Source: a virus
Length of the DNA: 23,793 nucleotides
Reading direction: 5' to 3' (one strand)
Virus record (IMG/VR): IMGVR_UViG_3300029990_000052
Span: 1 to 23,793 of that record
Position numbers and translations under genes: made by a program. Under the pieces are notes generated by a model. It did no database searches. It worked only from the letters and a program-made list of their open reading frames with translations, and was not told where the DNA came from. Positions within the stretch are counted from its first letter, which is position 1, and the number at the start of each line of letters is the position of its first letter. This document shows, piece by piece, positions 5,373-13,379 of the stretch.

Positions 5373-8300
5373 TTACATGCCCACGCTGGACCGCAATCCG
5401 GCGGACTTGAGCGTTTTAAATAATTTATCCATATCGCTTTCATTGAATTGGCCTGCTACTACTGTCTCGCCACCTGGCGCGCTAAATTGCACATGCACAG
5501 TTTTATTAGCGGCCTGAACCAATGTTGAGGACGGCGCTTGCGCGGCGGCATTAACCGCATTACCGGCAAATTTTTGTAAATCGGCAGAAGGAAGAGAAGG
5601 AATTGAAGCCGTTGGATTATTTCTTGCCTGAAATTCCAGTTTTTTAATTTGCGCATTTTCTATCAATAAACGTATATTTTCTTTGGCCCTGCCCATCGCG
5701 CCTTGAAAATCTCCGCCTTTAGTATCTTTATAAGTGTTGGTCATCAATTGCATAGCCTGACCTTTAAGTTCAAGCGCATTATTTTCCGCCAAAATAGTGT
5801 TTAATCCTTGCGTTAATGCCGGCCAGATTGCCTTATCGATGCGATCTGCCGCGCCGGTAAATATCCCTTCACTGGTGATGCTCCGGGAACTCAACGATCC
5901 CAAACTGTAAAGCGCATTATATAAACCGCTGGCAAGATTTTGATAATTAATCTGTTTGCTTGCAGCCAGGCTTTCCCGGCGTATTTTATTGGCGTCAACC
6001 AAGCCGCCACCAGCGAATTTAGCGGGTAATTGCCCGGCGTTAACCAGGCGCATGACCGGCACGCCTAACGCCTGTACGGCTTCCTTGCGAACAATAAATT
6101 CCCCCGCTTCCAGCAAGGCGCGTATTTTATCGCCGCCGCCGAATCCTGGCAGCATGCCGGTGCGTTTTGGATAGCCTCCTCCCTCGTAACCTAAAACCGG
6201 GCCGCCTATTGATTGGGCATTTTGGGTAACGATAGTAATCACCTTAGTTTCCGGTTTGGTTAGTTCGGCAATAGCCGCTTGCGCTGCGCTTAGGCTGCTT
6301 GCATCCATGCCAACTTTCATCAGGTATTCTTTTGAAAGCGCCGTGGTCATTTCAGTGATTTTGGCATTGGCGGTAGTTAATCCGGCAGTGGCCTCGTCCA
6401 AAGCGGATTTGACAGCTAACGCATTCTTTCCATGAGCGACGCCGTTATCAATCAGCGCCTGTTTTTCAACGTCATAAAGACGATTCAAATTATCCTTGGC
6501 TTTGTACTGGGAAAGATCGCCTTCAACGTTGGTTTTCGTTAAATTACCCGCCAGGTCTTTAGCCTCAGCTGTCAACTCATTGATTTTTTGTAAATCCGCT
6601 TTCTCGCCTTTTTTGCGCTCCTCCCGGATCTCATTCATAGTGGCATCAAAATCACTTTGATCTTGCGCTATTTTTTCATGCTCGGTTTTACCCTCCTGAT
6701 CAAGAGCGCGTAACGCCTTCTCATGAGTGTTGGCCAGCGCTTGAATATCCTCGCGTGATTGAGCGAACGCGGCATTTTCCTCGCCGTAAAGCGTGGAAAG
6801 CTTGGCGACTTCGCCCGCGTAAAAATCCGCGATGCCCCGGTAAACGGATAGTTTTGCTTCCTTTTTTGAGGTCTCAACCGCTGCCAGACGGTCAGCGTTA
6901 GCCTTGGCGCTAACCAGTTCGGCGGCGTATTCCTGCTCAATCAATTGCAGTTTAAACGTGGCGGCCTGTTGATCCAGGGCGATGGTTTGGTTAATCGCGG
7001 CCACTTTAGCGGCCACCCGTTGCGACTCTTTGGCGGTGTCGCTGATATCGGCGGCATCGATGGCGGCTATCCGGTCGGTCAAGCCTTGCTGGATGGCGGC
7101 CGCTTGGGTTTTGGTTTCCGTGTCAATGGTGGCGGTCAGGGATTTGATGGCTGCCTGCGTGGCGGCGAACGCCTGTTGTTGTTCCAGCGCGGCGGCTTTG
7201 ATGACTTCGGTTTTTTGCTGTTCGGCGGCTTTTATTTTGCCGGCGCTATCGGCATCGGCGCCATTCACTTTGCCTATGTCATCGCGGATTCCATCATATC
7301 GCACGCCCAGTGCATCCAGTTCTGCACTGAATTCTTTAACACTGGCAAACGTTAAAGGCCGGGTTATGAAACTGCCAAAAACAACAAACTTTTCGGTCAT
7401 CTGTGCGATATTTGCGGTCAGCACATCAAACCATTTGAATTGCACCGCCCATTCGCCGATCATTTTGCCGAAATCCCATGCCATCCAAACGACAAATAAG
7501 CCGTTTAACGCTTTGCCCAACACGCCCAAAGCCCTCGAAAAAATGCCGCTGGATACGGCTGCGGTTTCCTGTGTCGAGGCCAGGCGCGTATTAGCCGTTG
7601 CTAATCTGGTTTGACTGGCTTCCATTGCTTTTTGCGCGGCGGTTAGCCGCGTAATGGCTGCGGCTTGCGCAGTAGTGTTGGCCGTTAATGCCACGCGCAT
7701 TTCCGCCTCAAATACCAGTTGCTGTTTAAGTTGCACAGTTAACGCCGCTTCCTGCGCTTTAACCTGCAATAAAGCAATAGCAGCGGCGCGGGCCTCCTGC
7801 TGGGCGATGGCCGCTATCCGAGCGGCGGCGGCATTATCAAAAAAAGCCTTGGTGGAGGCGATCATCCCAACTACCAGGCGCGCGGCATAGGCTTCCGCCA
7901 GGGTCATAATGCCGGAAACGACGGCATCAAAGTTTTGGGCGACAGCTTGTAAAACGGTTGAAAGCTTGGATGTGGCTGAATTGGCAACGTCCGAGTTGCC
8001 GATAAACTTAAGCAGGGCATTATTAACCTGCGTCATCGCGCCGCTAACCGTGACCGGCAGCACGGCGAATTGAGCCGCTACCTTACCGGCGCTGTTGCTC
8101 AGCGCATTGATCAACTTATCGGATGTGAGTTGACCGGCTTCGGCCATTTCCCGCAATTTGGCGACAGGAACGCCCAAGCCGTCGGCCAAGGCTTTCGCCA
8201 GGCCGGGCGCCATCGACATGACCGAGTTTAAATCCTGGCCGCGTAACATGCCCAGGCCCAACGCTTGCGAGAATTGCAGGATGGCTGCCGAGTCCTGCGC

Positions 8301-8732
8301 TGCACCCTGGCTGGTTAAGGCGATAGCTTTATTGAGGGTTTCGGTAGTGGCGAACGCTTGTTCCTGCGTGCCGCCCAATACTTTGATAGCGGTGGCTAAT
8401 TTTCCGTAAATGGTATAGGTATCGTCCAGCCCGGTGCGGGTGCGCTGGGCGATAGCGAATAAATTGGTTTGCGCGGTGTTGAATTGTTCCGTGCCGTCCG
8501 TGACCAGTTTAAGCCGGGCTTCCAGGGTGCGGTAACTGTCTGATAGACTGATGGCCTCTTTAGCCAGGCCCACGAATAAGGTTATGCCCAGAATGCGCTT
8601 GGCAGCGGTTTCAAGCCGTTCCACGCCGGTGATGATCGATTGCGTGCCCGCGTTTACACTACGGATAGCCGGGCCGGTTTGGTCCTCGCCGCTAATTAAA
8701 ATTCTGATTGCTAGATCACGTAAACCGGCCAT
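5373..8732 (-). CDS. Tape measure protein (tail length and assembly)
   Basis: 1119 residues from ATG 8732. An in-frame ATG at 8780 adds 16 residues, but those are encoded by a REP-like palindrome and are unlikely to be native. Residues about 45-220 match the tape measure N-terminal domain (D-S-Y-R-T-L-E-A-R-L-K-L-V-T-D, then G-Q-D-L-N-S-V-M-S-M-A-P-G-L). Long Ala/Gln/Lys-rich coiled coils cover roughly 300-400 and 480-720. A hydrophobic segment with L-F-V-V-W-M-A-W lies near 400-430. Near 850-890 is the typical late motif G-F-G-G-G-D-K-I-R-A-L-L-E-A-G-E-F-I-V. It is the longest gene but one and sits between the tail chaperone and tail-tip genes. At about 1.5 angstrom per residue, the rule for lambda-type tails, it would specify a tail near 165-170 nm. 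With no sheath gene seen, a long non-contractile tail is inferred. Confidence 0.93.
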   Translation of the reverse strand: MAGLRDLAIRILISGEDQTGPAIRSVNAGTQSIITGVERLETAAKRILGITLFVGLAKEAISLSDSYRTLEARLKLVTDGTEQFNTAQTNLFAIAQRTRTGLDDTYTIYGKLATAIKVLGGTQEQAFATTETLNKAIALTSQGAAQDSAAILQFSQALGLGMLRGQDLNSVMSMAPGLAKALADGLGVPVAKLREMAEAGQLTSDKLINALSNSAGKVAAQFAVLPVTVSGAMTQVNNALLKFIGNSDVANSATSKLSTVLQAVAQNFDAVVSGIMTLAEAYAARLVVGMIASTKAFFDNAAAARIAAIAQQEARAAAIALLQVKAQEAALTVQLKQQLVFEAEMRVALTANTTAQAAAITRLTAAQKAMEASQTRLATANTRLASTQETAAVSSGIFSRALGVLGKALNGLFVVWMAWDFGKMIGEWAVQFKWFDVLTANIAQMTEKFVVFGSFITRPLTFASVKEFSAELDALGVRYDGIRDDIGKVNGADADSAGKIKAAEQQKTEVIKAAALEQQQAFAATQAAIKSLTATIDTETKTQAAAIQQGLTDRIAAIDAADISDTAKESQRVAAKVAAINQTIALDQQAATFKLQLIEQEYAAELVSAKANADRLAAVETSKKEAKLSVYRGIADFYAGEVAKLSTLYGEENAAFAQSREDIQALANTHEKALRALDQEGKTEHEKIAQDQSDFDATMNEIREERKKGEKADLQKINELTAEAKDLAGNLTKTNVEGDLSQYKAKDNLNRLYDVEKQALIDNGVAHGKNALAVKSALDEATAGLTTANAKITEMTTALSKEYLMKVGMDASSLSAAQAAIAELTKPETKVITIVTQNAQSIGGPVLGYEGGGYPKRTGMLPGFGGGDKIRALLEAGEFIVRKEAVQALGVPVMRLVNAGQLPAKFAGGGLVDANKIRRESLAASKQINYQNLASGLYNALYSLGSLSSRSITSEGIFTGAADRIDKAIWPALTQGLNTILAENNALELKGQAMQLMTNTYKDTKGGDFQGAMGRAKENIRLLIENAQIKKLEFQARNNPTASIPSLPSADLQKFAGNAVNAAAQAPSSTLVQAANKTVHVQFSAPGGETVVAGQFNESDMDKLFKTLKSAGLRSSVGM

Positions 8733-8748
8733 TGTTTTTCCGTTTTTG

Positions 8749-8824
8749 TAGGTTGGTTTAGCGATAGCATAACCCGACATTTGCCATGATAATTGTCGGG
8801 TTACGCTATCGCTAAATCCAACCT
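8749..8824. repeat. REP-like inverted repeat, family B
   Basis: Arms of about 30 bases (8750-8779 and 8794-8824) with one substitution and one indel; each carries the core TTAGCGATAGC and TAACCCGACA in opposite orientation, with a 14-base spacer. Similar palindromes are scattered through some methanotroph genomes as far as I recall. It lies just upstream of the tape measure gene, and an ATG inside it (8780-8778) is in frame with that gene. Confidence 0.85.
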
Positions 8825-9053
8825 GAGATAATTAAATACTAATTTAGTATTAATTTAATATTAAAAATATATTAGTATGCCGGCCAGGGTTTATAACCCC
8901 GGCTGATCAGATTTACGCTATTTCCCGTTAAATTAAACCTTAGTCGTGGATAATTGCATCGCTGCCTGGCTCTGCTATGCAGCAGCCAGACAATTATTCT
9001 TGGGATTTTATATTTGCATGTCCTTCTTGCCAAATTGATAGCCGAAACTGTAT
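8825..9053 (-). other. Non-coding, AT-rich structured spacer before the tape measure gene
   Basis: No convincing gene. It holds several dyads: 8966-8989 (CTGGCT and CTGC paired with GCAG and AGCCAG, triloop, one bulge), enclosed by ATAATTG/CAATTAT at 8950-8956 and 8991-8997; 8883-8903 (GCC-A-GGGTT / AACCC-C-GGC, 3-base loop); and an AT palindrome AATACTAA-T-TTAGTATT near 8835-8851. A 61-codon frame here (9057-8872) overlaps the frameshift product stop as ATGA but its composition is not protein-like. The region may affect expression of the tape measure relative to the chaperone; this is inference. Confidence 0.55.
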
Positions 9054-9206
9054 TCATTCGCTACTATTAAATTTCAGTACATTCAAAAAAAATCCCCAGC
9101 CGTAGTCAAATACCCTGCTATGACCGCGCTCAATCAATCTGCAACAGAGCCGGTCGATGGCGTCTCTGTCGTTTCCGGCGCGGCGGGTTCGAGTCCCGCC
9201 AGGATC
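9054..9206 (-). CDS. Tail assembly chaperone -1 frame extension (GT-like C-terminal part)
   Basis: This 50-codon frame has no credible start of its own and is reached by a -1 frameshift from the 113-residue chaperone at codon 90 (TTG, 9208-9206). Reading from G 9206 it encodes D-P-G-G-T-R-T-R, then A-I-D-R-L-C-C-R-L-I-E-R-G-H and the tail V-F-D-Y-G-W-G-F-F-L-N-V-L-K, ending TGA 9056-9054. The joined product would be 140 residues. The frame is open across the stop of the zero-frame product, and its composition is protein-like, unlike the following DNA. Overlapping G/GT chaperones made by frameshifting directly upstream of the tape measure gene are the rule in lambda-type and many other long-tailed phages. 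The shorter product would be made in excess and the extension would bind tail tube protein; that division of labour is known for lambda and inferred here. Confidence 0.78.
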   Translation of the reverse strand, partial: DPGGTRTRRAGNDRDAIDRLCCRLIERGHSRVFDYGWGFFLNVLKFNSSE

Positions 9207-9475
9207 AAAAAAGGGCTGTTCACCTGTTTAAATCCGTCGATCACCAGTTGCAATTCACTACCTGTTAAATCATCTATACTTTCGCACTCAGGGAAAACAA
9301 TAAACGGCGTTACCAAAGCCGCTATTTCCGCGAAGCGCGGCCCTAACAGGGTATTAACATCTATTTTATCCAGGTCGGTGAATCCGGATAATAACTGCCG
9401 AATGTCTTTAACGCGCAACTCCTGCACGGTAATAACGCGGTTTTCATCAAGATTTATCGTTTTGCTGTTGCGCAT
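9134..9475 (-). CDS. Tail assembly chaperone, zero-frame product (G-like)
   Basis: 113 residues from ATG 9475, located between the tail tube and tape measure genes, the standard place for tail assembly chaperones. It opens with a short beta-type segment (I-N-L-D-E-N-R-V-I-T-V-Q-E-L-R-V-K-D) followed by helices (D-I-R-Q-L-L-S-G-F, L-L-G-P-R-F-A-E-I). The last 23 residues, after Phe89-Leu90, are Pro/Thr/Glu-rich and low in complexity, as expected for a dispensable tail after a frameshift site. A slippery run and hairpin at codons 88-98 redirect a share of ribosomes into the -1 frame. The product should coat the tape measure protein during tail assembly and be absent from the virion. Function rests on position and architecture rather than on a clear family match. 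Confidence 0.78.
   Translation of the reverse strand: MRNSKTINLDENRVITVQELRVKDIRQLLSGFTDLDKIDVNTLLGPRFAEIAALVTPFIVFPECESIDDLTGSELQLVIDGFKQVNSPFLILAGLEPAAPETTETPSTGSVAD
9182..9215 (-). promoter_or_regulatory. Programmed -1 ribosomal frameshift signal
   Basis: On the minus strand the sequence CCCTTTTTTG (9215-9206) contains two overlapping X-XXY-YYZ heptamers in the zero frame: C CCT TTT and T TTT TTG. After a 5-base spacer (ATCCT) comes a perfect 6-bp GC stem, GGCGGG (9200-9195) with CCCGCC (9187-9182), and a 7-base loop. Slippery site, spacer and stem all fit the bacterial -1 signal. The -1 frame is open for 50 codons and the zero frame stops after 23 more codons. Confidence 0.8.
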
Positions 9476-9489
9476 ATTGATTTCTACGG

Positions 9490-9534
9490 TGGGAGCGGCT
9501 TTGGCCGCGATGAGCGCGGCTAAAGCCGCTCCTA
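9490..9534. repeat. REP-like inverted repeat, family C
   Basis: Arms GGAGCGGCTTTGGCCGCG and CGCGGCTAAAGCCGCTCC differ at one position and are separated by a short spacer. Each half is itself nearly palindromic. The unit occupies the gap between the tail tube stop (9546) and the chaperone start (9475). GC-rich repeats of this form are common extragenic palindromes in gammaproteobacteria. No T-run follows on the minus strand. Confidence 0.85.
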
Positions 9535-9545
9535 CGGCGCAATTC

Positions 9546-10295
9546 CTAGAATGATTCGACGGTATAAGGCGTGATTTTTCCGCTCATTGTTTCCATCCGT
9601 CCGGCAAATCCTATTTCAACAAATTTGTCATCCATAAAATTAACATCGCCATCCGATACCAAAAGCGCTCGATCTACATTGATAATTAACGCTTTTCCGT
9701 CGGACAGGTTGCGTCCGTCCAGTTTTAAAGCGCCCTGTATTTGCGGCTTGGTCGCGCCAGAAACGGTAAATCCGGCGATGGCGGCATGCGCATAGTTAAC
9801 CTTTAAAGCCTTTTCGGCGGTAATCAGTCCGCCCGTAATCGCCTCGATCATACCCAACGCGTAATTGATTTTATAATCAACATTTTCAACAAACGTCAAC
9901 GCGGGCGTGGATGCGACAGCTTCTTCAACGGTTACGCTGGCAGCGGTGATATTCCGGCTTGCCAGCGGCACATAAACGCCCAATTTAGCGATGATCGCTT
10001 CATCTGATACCGTGCCTGATCCGCTGCTTAAATCGGCTTCATCGCCCATCAGCGCCATAGCCAGCGAGGTGCGGTCAAAGTTGGTTATTTTGACCTTTAA
10101 CTCAGATGGCTTGGGGATAGCGACTGAAGCGGTAATTTGCCCGTAAGAACCTTTATCTTTTGATATTTGCTCTTTAATATCGGACTTATTGGAAATAGTG
10201 AATTCAGCGAGGCCGGGTATCTGTTTCCAGCCGGTAGGGACGCCGTTTAATTCACGGTTTAAATAAAGTGTGCCTTCGGCTAATAATCCGGCCAT
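9546..10295 (-). CDS. Major tail tube protein
   Basis: 249 residues from ATG 10295, with GAGG 8 bases upstream. The N-terminus (M-A-G-L-L-A-E-G-T-L-Y-L-N-R-E-L-N-G) and the segment W-K-Q-I-P-G-L-A-E-F-T-I-S-N-K-S-D fit tail tube proteins of long-tailed phages. The rest is strongly beta-type, with V-N-Y-A-H-A-A-I-A-G-F-T-V-S-G and a C-terminus M-E-T-M-S-G-K-I-T-P-Y-T-V-E-S-F. It sits after the tail terminator and small protein genes and before the chaperone gene, the normal place for the tube subunit, which must be made in large amounts and stacks as hexameric rings around the tape measure. No contractile sheath gene neighbours it. Alternative: a tube with an added beta domain near residues 105-175 (A-A-S-V-T-V-E-E-A-V, then F-V-E-N-V-D-Y-K-I-N-Y). 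Confidence 0.88.
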   Translation of the reverse strand: MAGLLAEGTLYLNRELNGVPTGWKQIPGLAEFTISNKSDIKEQISKDKGSYGQITASVAIPKPSELKVKITNFDRTSLAMALMGDEADLSSGSGTVSDEAIIAKLGVYVPLASRNITAASVTVEEAVASTPALTFVENVDYKINYALGMIEAITGGLITAEKALKVNYAHAAIAGFTVSGATKPQIQGALKLDGRNLSDGKALIINVDRALLVSDGDVNFMDDKFVEIGFAGRMETMSGKITPYTVESF

Positions 10296-10496: not shown

Positions 10497-10976
10497 TTAG
10501 TTCACCACTATTTTCCTGATTTTAAATATCAGGCTGAATTCTGCATAACCCAGATTGTATTCAGGTTCGGCGCGTCCTGCGTAGATAAACGGCCTGAAAA
10601 AGTTCTTGCCGGGCGGCAACCAACCGGATAATGTTTCAATGCACTGTTGCAGTAATATCCCGGCCAGGTTTTCGGTTAATTTATCGTCGATTTGAGATAC
10701 CTGGTGCTCGACAATGATAATCAAATGCCAGTCCTGATCCTCAACCACGCCGGTGCCGTTGGTTAATTGACTGGCTATATCCGCCGCGCCCGGCATCACG
10801 AAACACGCCGGCAATAAGGGTCCAATATCCGTTAAACCGGCGATCAATGACGGATTGCTGATGGTCTTGAATAGTTGCAGATACGTTGTCTCATCGTTTT
10901 CATCCGTTTGCGCCACAGTCGCCAGCGCCGTTAAACGGTCAATAATCATCTGCTCGGCATCGTAAACATGAGTCAT
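10497..10976 (-). CDS. Tail terminator/tail completion-type protein
   Basis: 159 residues; ATG 10976 overlaps the previous stop as ATGA, so it is translationally coupled to the GpZ-like gene. It starts with a helix (Y-D-A-E-Q-M-I-I-D-R-L-T-A-L), followed by P-A-C-F-V-M-P-G near residue 58 and a beta region W-H-L-I-I-I-V-E-H-Q-V, ending in Y-A-E-F-S-L-I-F-K-I-R-K-I. The alpha-beta order and gene position (after GpZ-like, before tail tube) fit tail terminators (lambda U and gp37-type proteins), which cap the tube and join it to the head. Assignment is by position and secondary-structure pattern; sequence similarity to lambda U is not evident. Confidence 0.68.
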   Translation of the reverse strand: MTHVYDAEQMIIDRLTALATVAQTDENDETTYLQLFKTISNPSLIAGLTDIGPLLPACFVMPGAADIASQLTNGTGVVEDQDWHLIIIVEHQVSQIDDKLTENLAGILLQQCIETLSGWLPPGKNFFRPFIYAGRAEPEYNLGYAEFSLIFKIRKIVVN

Positions 10977-11476
10977 CGCAAACCCGCTTCCAGTTTTTCC
11001 AGATAACGGCGCTGTAATTCGTTGGCGGCTTCATCGGCCACCTGTCCGGCGATGACTTGCGCCTGCGGCAGTTCGACGACTTGTTCAACCAACGGAAATC
11101 GCTGTGCGCCCTTGCGTTTAAAAATGGAGATATGGCCGGTGCGCATTCTGGCGACAAAACCGCCCGCCCAATAATATTGTCCTGCGGACGCGCCGCCGGA
11201 TTCTTGCGTTAATTTTCCGGCATAAGCGGCTTTAACCGGATTCAACCCTAAAAAAATAATGCCCTGGTAATCAGTGGAACGTTTAAACACCCGGAAATTT
11301 TTAAACACTTTGCCGGGCAAGCCGGTGGCAAGCGCCATCCTGTCTTTCAACAGTTTATCGGCAAAGGTGGTCGTGGTCCGTAGCGCCGACCGCTGCGCGT
11401 TAAAGATCGTGCGCGGCGCTACGTTTAAAAACCGTTGCAAATCACTTTGATCTAAATTTATCTTTAAATTTATCAT
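10973..11476 (-). CDS. Minor tail protein Z-like tail completion protein
   Basis: 167 residues; its ATG (11476) overlaps the preceding stop by one base (TAATG). N-terminal V-A-P-R-T-I-F-N-A-Q-R-S-A-L-R-T-T-T-T-F-A-D-K-L is the helical region typical of the GpZ/neck family, followed by a beta part with Y-Q-G-I-I-F-L-G-L-N-P-V-K-A, a G-G-F-V-A-R-M-R-T-G-H-I-S-I-F-K-R-K-G segment and a C-terminal helix E-A-A-N-E-L-Q-R-R-Y-L-E-K-L. In lambda, Z acts at the end of tail assembly and is needed for DNA injection. Position between the head-tail joining protein and the terminator agrees. Confidence 0.78.
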   Translation of the reverse strand: MINLKINLDQSDLQRFLNVAPRTIFNAQRSALRTTTTFADKLLKDRMALATGLPGKVFKNFRVFKRSTDYQGIIFLGLNPVKAAYAGKLTQESGGASAGQYYWAGGFVARMRTGHISIFKRKGAQRFPLVEQVVELPQAQVIAGQVADEAANELQRRYLEKLEAGLR

Positions 11477-12526: not shown

Positions 12527-13048
12527 TCACCGGCAGATAGACGGCAGATAGCGCTGCGGCACGCTGGTCGCCGCGCCTGTTCCCGCCACCGGATTGGAGG
12601 CGGCTGTCGCGGAACACTCAAAAGCCAGTCCTCCGCCTGTCACCGTGTAGACAAATTCAATCGCTTTTGATGACGCATCGCCGCCAATGGTTGGCGATAA
12701 TGTCACCAAAACTTTGGCCTGATTATTCGTTAACCCACCCATACCGGCGACGCCATAGCTTGGCGTAGAGCCTACATATTTTGAATCCGCGATTGATTTC
12801 AGCCAGTCGCCGATAATAGTGCCCGGTAATGGCTGAGTAACCGGCATTTGTCCGTTGCTGGAATATTCTTCCATCAACGGCAGTTTGCCGCTGCTGGCCA
12901 GACTGATAATAACGGCAACCTTGGCGCGCGTGGTGTAATCGTTATAAGCTGGAATGGCAATGGCCGCGAGAATTCCGATGATCGCCACCACGATCATCAG
13001 TTCAATGAGAGTAAAACCACGCGCTAATCGTAGTCTGGTGTTACCCAT
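12527..13048 (-). CDS. Type IV pilin (PilA/PilE-like prepilin) encoded in the phage late operon
   Basis: 173 residues from ATG 13048, which overlaps the upstream stop (ATGGGTAA) and has GGGGA upstream. A longer frame to 13129 lies inside the previous gene and is not needed. Leader [11 protein letters not shown] ends in Gly11, the prepilin peptidase site, followed by Phe12 (+1), Glu16 (+5) and a 20-residue hydrophobic helix ([16 protein letters not shown]). Then comes [12 protein letters not shown] and a globular domain with Cys145 and Cys172 that could form the pilin disulfide loop, ending R-Y-L-P-S-I-C-R. Length and all hallmarks match complete major-type IVa pilins, so it looks functional. 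No pilus machine genes are near. It would need host PilD and assembly proteins. Role unknown: altered pili, receptor blocking or superinfection exclusion are inferences. Confidence 0.92.
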
Positions 13049-13379
13049 TCTTTTCCCCGTCTTCGTTAACCGGCTTTTTGGGTTTCCTGTGCGCGGCTTT
13101 TTGCGTATGTTGTTCAGTTTCTGTTTCAAACTGATTAATTTCCTCGTCCGTTAACAACCCCCTGTGCCAGTCATAAACGGGCAAAATGCCTTTCGGCAAA
13201 TCCCCGGCTATTTCTATCGTTTCACCGGCTTTAAACTGATGCGGGACAACGCCGACATACACCTTTTCTTTAGCATCAAGAAACTCTAAAAGATGACTGC
13301 GGGCGGCGTATTGTTCCGGCGTTAATTTTAACGCTACGCCTGCCGGAATCGTGGTCGCGGTTTCAAGTTTTATTTTCAT
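13041..13379 (-). CDS. Hypothetical head-associated protein (112 aa)
   Basis: ATG 13379 with AGGG 8 bases upstream, directly after the capsid stop at 13390. Residues 1-75 are ordered ([20 protein letters not shown], then [18 protein letters not shown]); the C-terminal 35 are charged and low-complexity ([18 protein letters not shown]). Position just after the major capsid gene is that of small head-completion proteins (lambda FI region), but no family match is claimed. Its stop overlaps the pilin start by three bases, which couples the pilin to capsid-level translation. Confidence 0.7.

Follow-up and report, generated by a model that had tools for sequence, protein, structure and literature searches.

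The closest described counterparts of the locus analysed here are the tail-assembly chaperone genes G/GT of phage lambda and E/E+E' of phage P2, which it resembles in gene position, in the -1 overlap and in the layout for two products from one start. The slippery heptamer of lambda is GGGAAAG. In P2 the tail chaperone frameshift takes place at TTTTTTG, the heptamer also present here, and, unlike our locus, P2 and its relatives in Burkholderia reportedly have no hairpin downstream (PMC3091744). A -1 frameshift at T TTT TTC has been predicted for the tail chaperone group (phrog_1442) of the Casadabanvirus phages D3112 and JBD88a (PMC4378225). Outside phages, -1 frameshifting in Escherichia coli dnaX combines an internal Shine-Dalgarno (SD), a slippery heptamer and a 3' hairpin, with an SD spacing of 9–14 nt (PMC5009743, PMC3711429).

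The window, i.e. the whole stretch of DNA analysed, comprises 23,793 bases and is a virus record. Its minus strand carries a lambda-type terminase and portal, a major head protein, a tail terminator, an Ig-domain major tail protein and a tape measure protein, and the single ORF between the last two (113 aa) sits in the position of lambda G/GT. Three hallmarks of G/GT-type genes (Xu, Hendrix and Duda 2004) were found: a locus between major tail protein and tape measure, a second ORF overlapping in the -1 frame without a convincing start of its own, and an in-frame slippery heptamer kept in relatives. A sequence-only reading of the window had already proposed a programmed -1 frameshift in a chaperone gene before the tape measure, and we recovered its two in-frame heptamers on the minus strand, the 6-bp GC hairpin 5 bases after them, the predicted 140-residue product beside the 113-residue one and the adjoining tape measure gene, with the major tail protein on the other side. 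The 50 open codons of the -1 frame also held, although the extension ends in LKFNSSE and not in LK as that reading had it, and the gap that it put at about 400 bases measures 353 nt between the zero-frame stop and the tape measure ORF, or 273 nt once the 80 nt occupied by the extension are counted.

Table 1. Features of the predicted frameshift locus and its flanking genes (positions in the window)
Feature	Position	Strand	Evidence or remark
Zero-frame chaperone ORF ("G-like", 113 aa)	9134..9475	-	phrog_7608, 1.9e-7; predicted beta-hairpin and helices, pLDDT 79
Slippery sequence CCCTTTTTTG, in-frame C_CCT_TTT and T_TTT_TTG	9206..9215	-	T_TTT_TTN at the same place in 14/16 viral relatives
AGGTGA, weakened remnant of the family's internal SD (GGAGGTGA in relatives)	9220..9225	-	about -8.4 kcal/mol vs up to -18 in relatives; alone not significant
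GGCGGG-ACTCGAA-CCCGCC hairpin, probable 3' stimulator	9182..9200	-	5 nt past the slip site
-1 frame extension ("T-like", 50 codons and stop)	9054..9206	-	
Major tail protein with Ig-like domain	9546..10295	-	phrog_807, 2.3e-33
Tape measure protein (Met at 8732 is the probable true start)	5373..8780	-	PF20155, 1.6e-55; phrog_3519, 5.7e-85

Direct reading of the minus strand gives AAC AGC CCT TTT TTG ATC CTG GCG across the slip region, where CCT TTT TTG, preceded by AGC, are codons 88–90 of the ORF. C_CCT_TTT (9215–9209) and T_TTT_TTG (9212–9206) are both in frame and in phase for a tandem -1 slip, and a spacer of ATCCT (9205–9201) separates them from the hairpin. From there the -1 frame stays open (9057–9206) up to a TGA at 9056–9054, encoding DPGGTRTRRAGNDRDAIDRLCCRLIERGHSRVFDYGWGFFLNVLKFNSSE. 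Such an arrangement is rare within the window: among the 45 in-frame X_XXY_YYZ heptamers of its main genes, an extension past the stop follows only from these two and from one in the last codons of gene 10973–11476, which simply runs into the next gene. Inside the extension there is a second T_TTT_TTG, within a T8 run (GGA TTT TTT TTG, 9085–9092, minus strand), in phase with the -1 frame and kept in the relative L002; a second slip there would end after about six codons. The stretch between the extension and the tape measure (8781–9053) is AT-rich and non-coding with inverted repeats, and its counterpart in L002 is shorter and unrelated.

A search of viral contigs with the 113-aa protein returned 16 loci, one identical over the region (L001), one 82% identical (L002) and the others 32–57% identical. 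The same-position heptamer T_TTT_TTN is in frame in 14 of the 16, and the motif CRLIERGH..YG.xFF, which across relatives can also be written C(R/H)L(I/V)E.GH...YG..FF, appears in the -1 frame of every relative readable far enough. Of the exceptions, L013 has both frames but no obvious heptamer before the T frame, and L016 has both parts in one frame, again without a heptamer. When the T part alone served as query (alignment A2), 47 loci were found, nearly all with this part placed in the -1 frame relative to a chaperone ORF upstream; three of them (L050, L053 and L061) have AAACCCT instead of T_TTT_TTN, and L045 is cut off. Both halves lie in one frame in five loci, L037 (the L016 contig), L038, L064, L078 and L091, the last being the in-frame G-T fusion of published record LR797314, and these natural fusions show both halves to be parts of one chain. 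L091 (3025) carries a T8 run from which the -1 frame reaches a stop after seven codons, so that a shift there would yield a short form, the reverse polarity, as in dnaX, where the shift shortens the product. We do not claim such an inverted polarity (zero frame long, shift short) for the in-frame fusions, since a T8 run followed closely by a -1 stop occurs in L091 alone.

The region translated solely in the -1 frame evolves as coding DNA under purifying selection. Between the window and L002, its nearest distinct relative, 11 of the 15 differences in this T-only region fall at third positions of the -1 frame (binomial p 0.002), with dN 0.07 and dS 1.68, rough values for so short a stretch. This bears on whether the overlap could be an artefact of sequencing or assembly, or the remains of a pseudogene, as a homopolymer site in a metagenome record might suggest: L001, another contig, matches the region without a difference, the layout recurs in L002 at about 80% identity, and purifying selection acts on the -1 frame. 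Given the conserved layout this explanation is in practice refuted, and we rate it the least probable of all. Re-initiation is a more serious contender, in which the T part would be a separate 27-aa protein started from a -1-frame TTG that overlaps the zero-frame stop (TTGA). That overlap is present in both the window and L002, and L013 has TAATG at the equivalent place, yet a start codon is missing there in relatives including L010, and no stop interrupts the -1 frame between that point and the heptamer. Moreover, natural in-frame fusions are known, and in the dual-coding stretch before the stop neither frame is interrupted although the window and L002 have overlaps differing by 63 nt in length; we consider re-initiation very unlikely. 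Since the heptamer and the -1 extension are kept, in-frame fusions exist and the dN/dS is of coding type, a programmed -1 frameshift in a lambda G/GT-type tail-assembly chaperone gene is, judging from the sequences compared, very likely, and the prediction of the sequence-only reading stands on gene order and codon-position substitutions as well.

That reading had put its emphasis on the downstream hairpin and had missed what seems to be the conserved partner of the slip site across the family, an internal SD with GGAGG about 10 nt upstream. GGAGG or AGGAGGTGA precedes the slip in most loci, GGAGG ending 10 nt before T_TTT_TTN, within the 9–14 nt reported for SD-stimulated -1 shifting (PMC5009743). 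As conservation of the encoded E-V-N could in principle explain this sequence, codon usage was compared: the Glu codon within the SD is GAG in 36 of 36 cases (GAA in none), against GAG:GAA ratios of 176:149 elsewhere in the same genes (Fisher p 1.2e-9) and 107:88 for Glu before Val in the long ORFs of the same loci (p 4.5e-9). Near-identical loci were excluded from these tests, although the remaining ones are related and the p-values overstate their independence. Pairing with the anti-SD reaches -11 kcal/mol or better at 25 of 43 sites vs 2.6% of random positions.

For an independent test, the pattern GGAGGTNAAN6TTTTTTG was searched on its own in viral contigs, with a scrambled SD as control. 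The full overlap architecture (at least 60 open codons in the zero frame, with the -1 frame running 40 codons or more beyond their stop) was found in 35/80 among the matches listed, 33 of which were judged by eye to be tail chaperone-like, the exceptions being L131 and L150, whereas the control gave 1/80 among the matches listed, not a chaperone. These counts are to be read as fractions and not as totals, and certain contigs had already come up in the earlier searches. A short DNA pattern (GGAGG, 10 nt, TTTTTTN) can thus find frameshifted tail chaperones without protein homology. The upstream SD also weighs against the idea that the fusion comes from edited transcripts produced by RNA polymerase slippage at the T run. 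T runs of 6–9 occur at these sites and slippage has been described on T runs longer than 8 (PMC3711429), but the window has just six Ts, three relatives use AAACCCT with no long run, and in relatives the X_XXY_YYZ phase is preserved exactly in frame, together with an upstream SD, an element whose target is the ribosome and not the polymerase. We regard polymerase slippage as slightly less probable still than re-initiation, and retain ribosomal frameshifting.

The window itself departs from the family in this respect. Upstream of its slip site it reads AAACAGGTGAACAGCCC, in which the pairing of AGGTGA is at a level reached by about 11% of random positions, and L002 has GCGGTGA at the same place. 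The GC hairpin (six G-C pairs, a 7-nt loop and a possible outer U-G pair) is common only to the window and L002 among the viruses covered by a pattern scan (L001 being the twin of the window), and would therefore be a device of this lineage and not of the family. A stem-loop a few nt downstream, as in dnaX, is thus found here (6-bp GC stem, 5 nt), while its folding z-scores of -1.2 over 40 nt and -1.35 over 84 nt are weak evidence by themselves. From AGCCCTTTTTTG through the end of the hairpin, 36 of 37 nt are identical to L002, the single change lying in the loop, in comparison with 22% of positions differing in the upstream gene (78% identical; binomial p 0.0013 for the slip-plus-hairpin stretch). 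This near-identity, to which dual coding contributes too, would fit selection acting on the slip site and the hairpin; no compensatory or covarying stem pairs were seen between the window and L002. Read on the plus strand, the hairpin is GGCGGGTTCGAGTCCCGCC, a perfect tRNA T-arm, which we take as coincidence, as ARAGORN finds no tRNA and L002 has lost the match through one loop change. A general trade-off, in which a weak SD is offset by a strong hairpin, was also considered and is unsupported: SD strength and downstream folding are uncorrelated over the 43 sites (Spearman 0.15, p 0.35), and the window and L002 amount to one anecdote. That an upstream stimulator was replaced by a downstream one in the window lineage is offered as a suggestion.

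From sequence layout, conservation and coding signature, which the comparisons establish, we infer the slipping itself, its efficiency, the contribution of each element and the role in assembly. Most ribosomes would read the zero frame and make the G-like protein of 113 aa, and a minority would shift into the -1 frame on T_TTT_TTG (or on C_CCT_TTT), around Phe89-Leu90, to make a GT-like protein of 140 aa with the conserved T motif at its end. If lambda is taken as the model, the short form would coat the tape measure and the long form recruit the major tail protein. In the window lineage the downstream hairpin would probably aid the slip, with a weak contribution from the upstream AGGTGA; for most relatives a strong internal SD 10 nt upstream would assist it.

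Structure models are supportive of the chaperone identity, not decisive, as the fold matches are weak. The AlphaFold2 model of the 113-aa protein (pLDDT 79), a beta-hairpin followed by helices, has the HK97 tail-assembly chaperone 2OB9 as its best PDB match (E 0.39), and its viral structure matches (BFVD) include several tail chaperones (prob 0.75–0.85). The natural fusion L016 is modelled with a G-like domain joined by a poorly predicted linker to a helical T domain, and its matches include N15 GT with weak scores. PHROG 7608, the family matched by the window ORF, has no assigned function; Pfam gave no named family at threshold for either half of the window gene, with PF10109 appearing below threshold in one relative, and tblastn of the 113-aa protein against phage records gave no match.

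Other features of the neighbourhood deserve mention. A REP/BIME-like double hairpin (GTAGGAGCGGCTTTAGCCGCG...CGCGGCCAAAGCCGCTCCCAC, 9489–9535) lies between the major tail protein and the chaperone and is nearly identical in L002 although the flanks diverge; it may be a REP of host type, or else an attenuator holding chaperone expression below that of the tail protein. The structural cluster also includes a phage-encoded type IV pilin (12527–13081, minus strand; PF00114 1.5e-8, N-methylation motif 3.3e-8), possibly involved in receptor mimicry or superinfection exclusion, and a prepilin-like gene is present between the major tail protein and the chaperone in phages F10 and LESphi3. Phages PCA1, MuM16-1, ACF1 and HS6 (L092, L093, L094 and L095) have a related major tail protein with the tape measure almost directly after it, and none of the four has an annotated chaperone gene between the two.

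At the thresholds used there is no recognisable sequence similarity between the window gene and the chaperones of lambda or P2, and the G part of Casadabanvirus shows only remote similarity (hhalign probability 52). The tail chaperones of Pseudomonas phages F10, MD8 and LESphi3 are distant homologues, matched in both frames, with GAGGTGAACCCGCA-TTTTTTC and the -1 extension ICVLVRLGHHHVLEYPWSLFLTAL, and in F10 and LESphi3 the same genes flank the chaperone on both sides as in the window. Unlike the window, all three have an upstream GAGGTGA and no hairpin of the window type; their records annotate the zero-frame half only. Within Casadabanvirus (L097/L098), JBD88a has GGGAGGTGAACAGCGG-TTTTTTC, with a strong SD (GGGAGGTGA) 10 nt before T_TTT_TTC, whereas D3112 has the slip without an SD, which makes them a natural pair for testing the SD.

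The window gene is a routine, so far unannotated, new case of a well-known kind with a P2-type heptamer; the unusual and more useful part is the family-wide SD. The family is large and mostly unannotated, and its slippery sites usually come with an extra ribosome-gripping signal. In the literature searched, which lay outside subscription journals, we found no description of an SD stimulator in tail-chaperone frameshifting. A tentative scenario, which we hold to be possible but somewhat short of probable, is that PHROG 7608 and its kin rely on a dnaX-type SD 10 nt before U_UUU_UUN for their G:GT ratio, that the window lineage has mostly swapped it for a downstream GC hairpin, and that others have dropped the shift and fused the halves in frame. 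The 5' SD and the 3' hairpin could then be compared as possibly interchangeable means of setting one protein ratio. In dnaX, an unrelated gene, both accompany one slippery heptamer; here the SD of the relatives is dnaX-like and that of the window is degraded.
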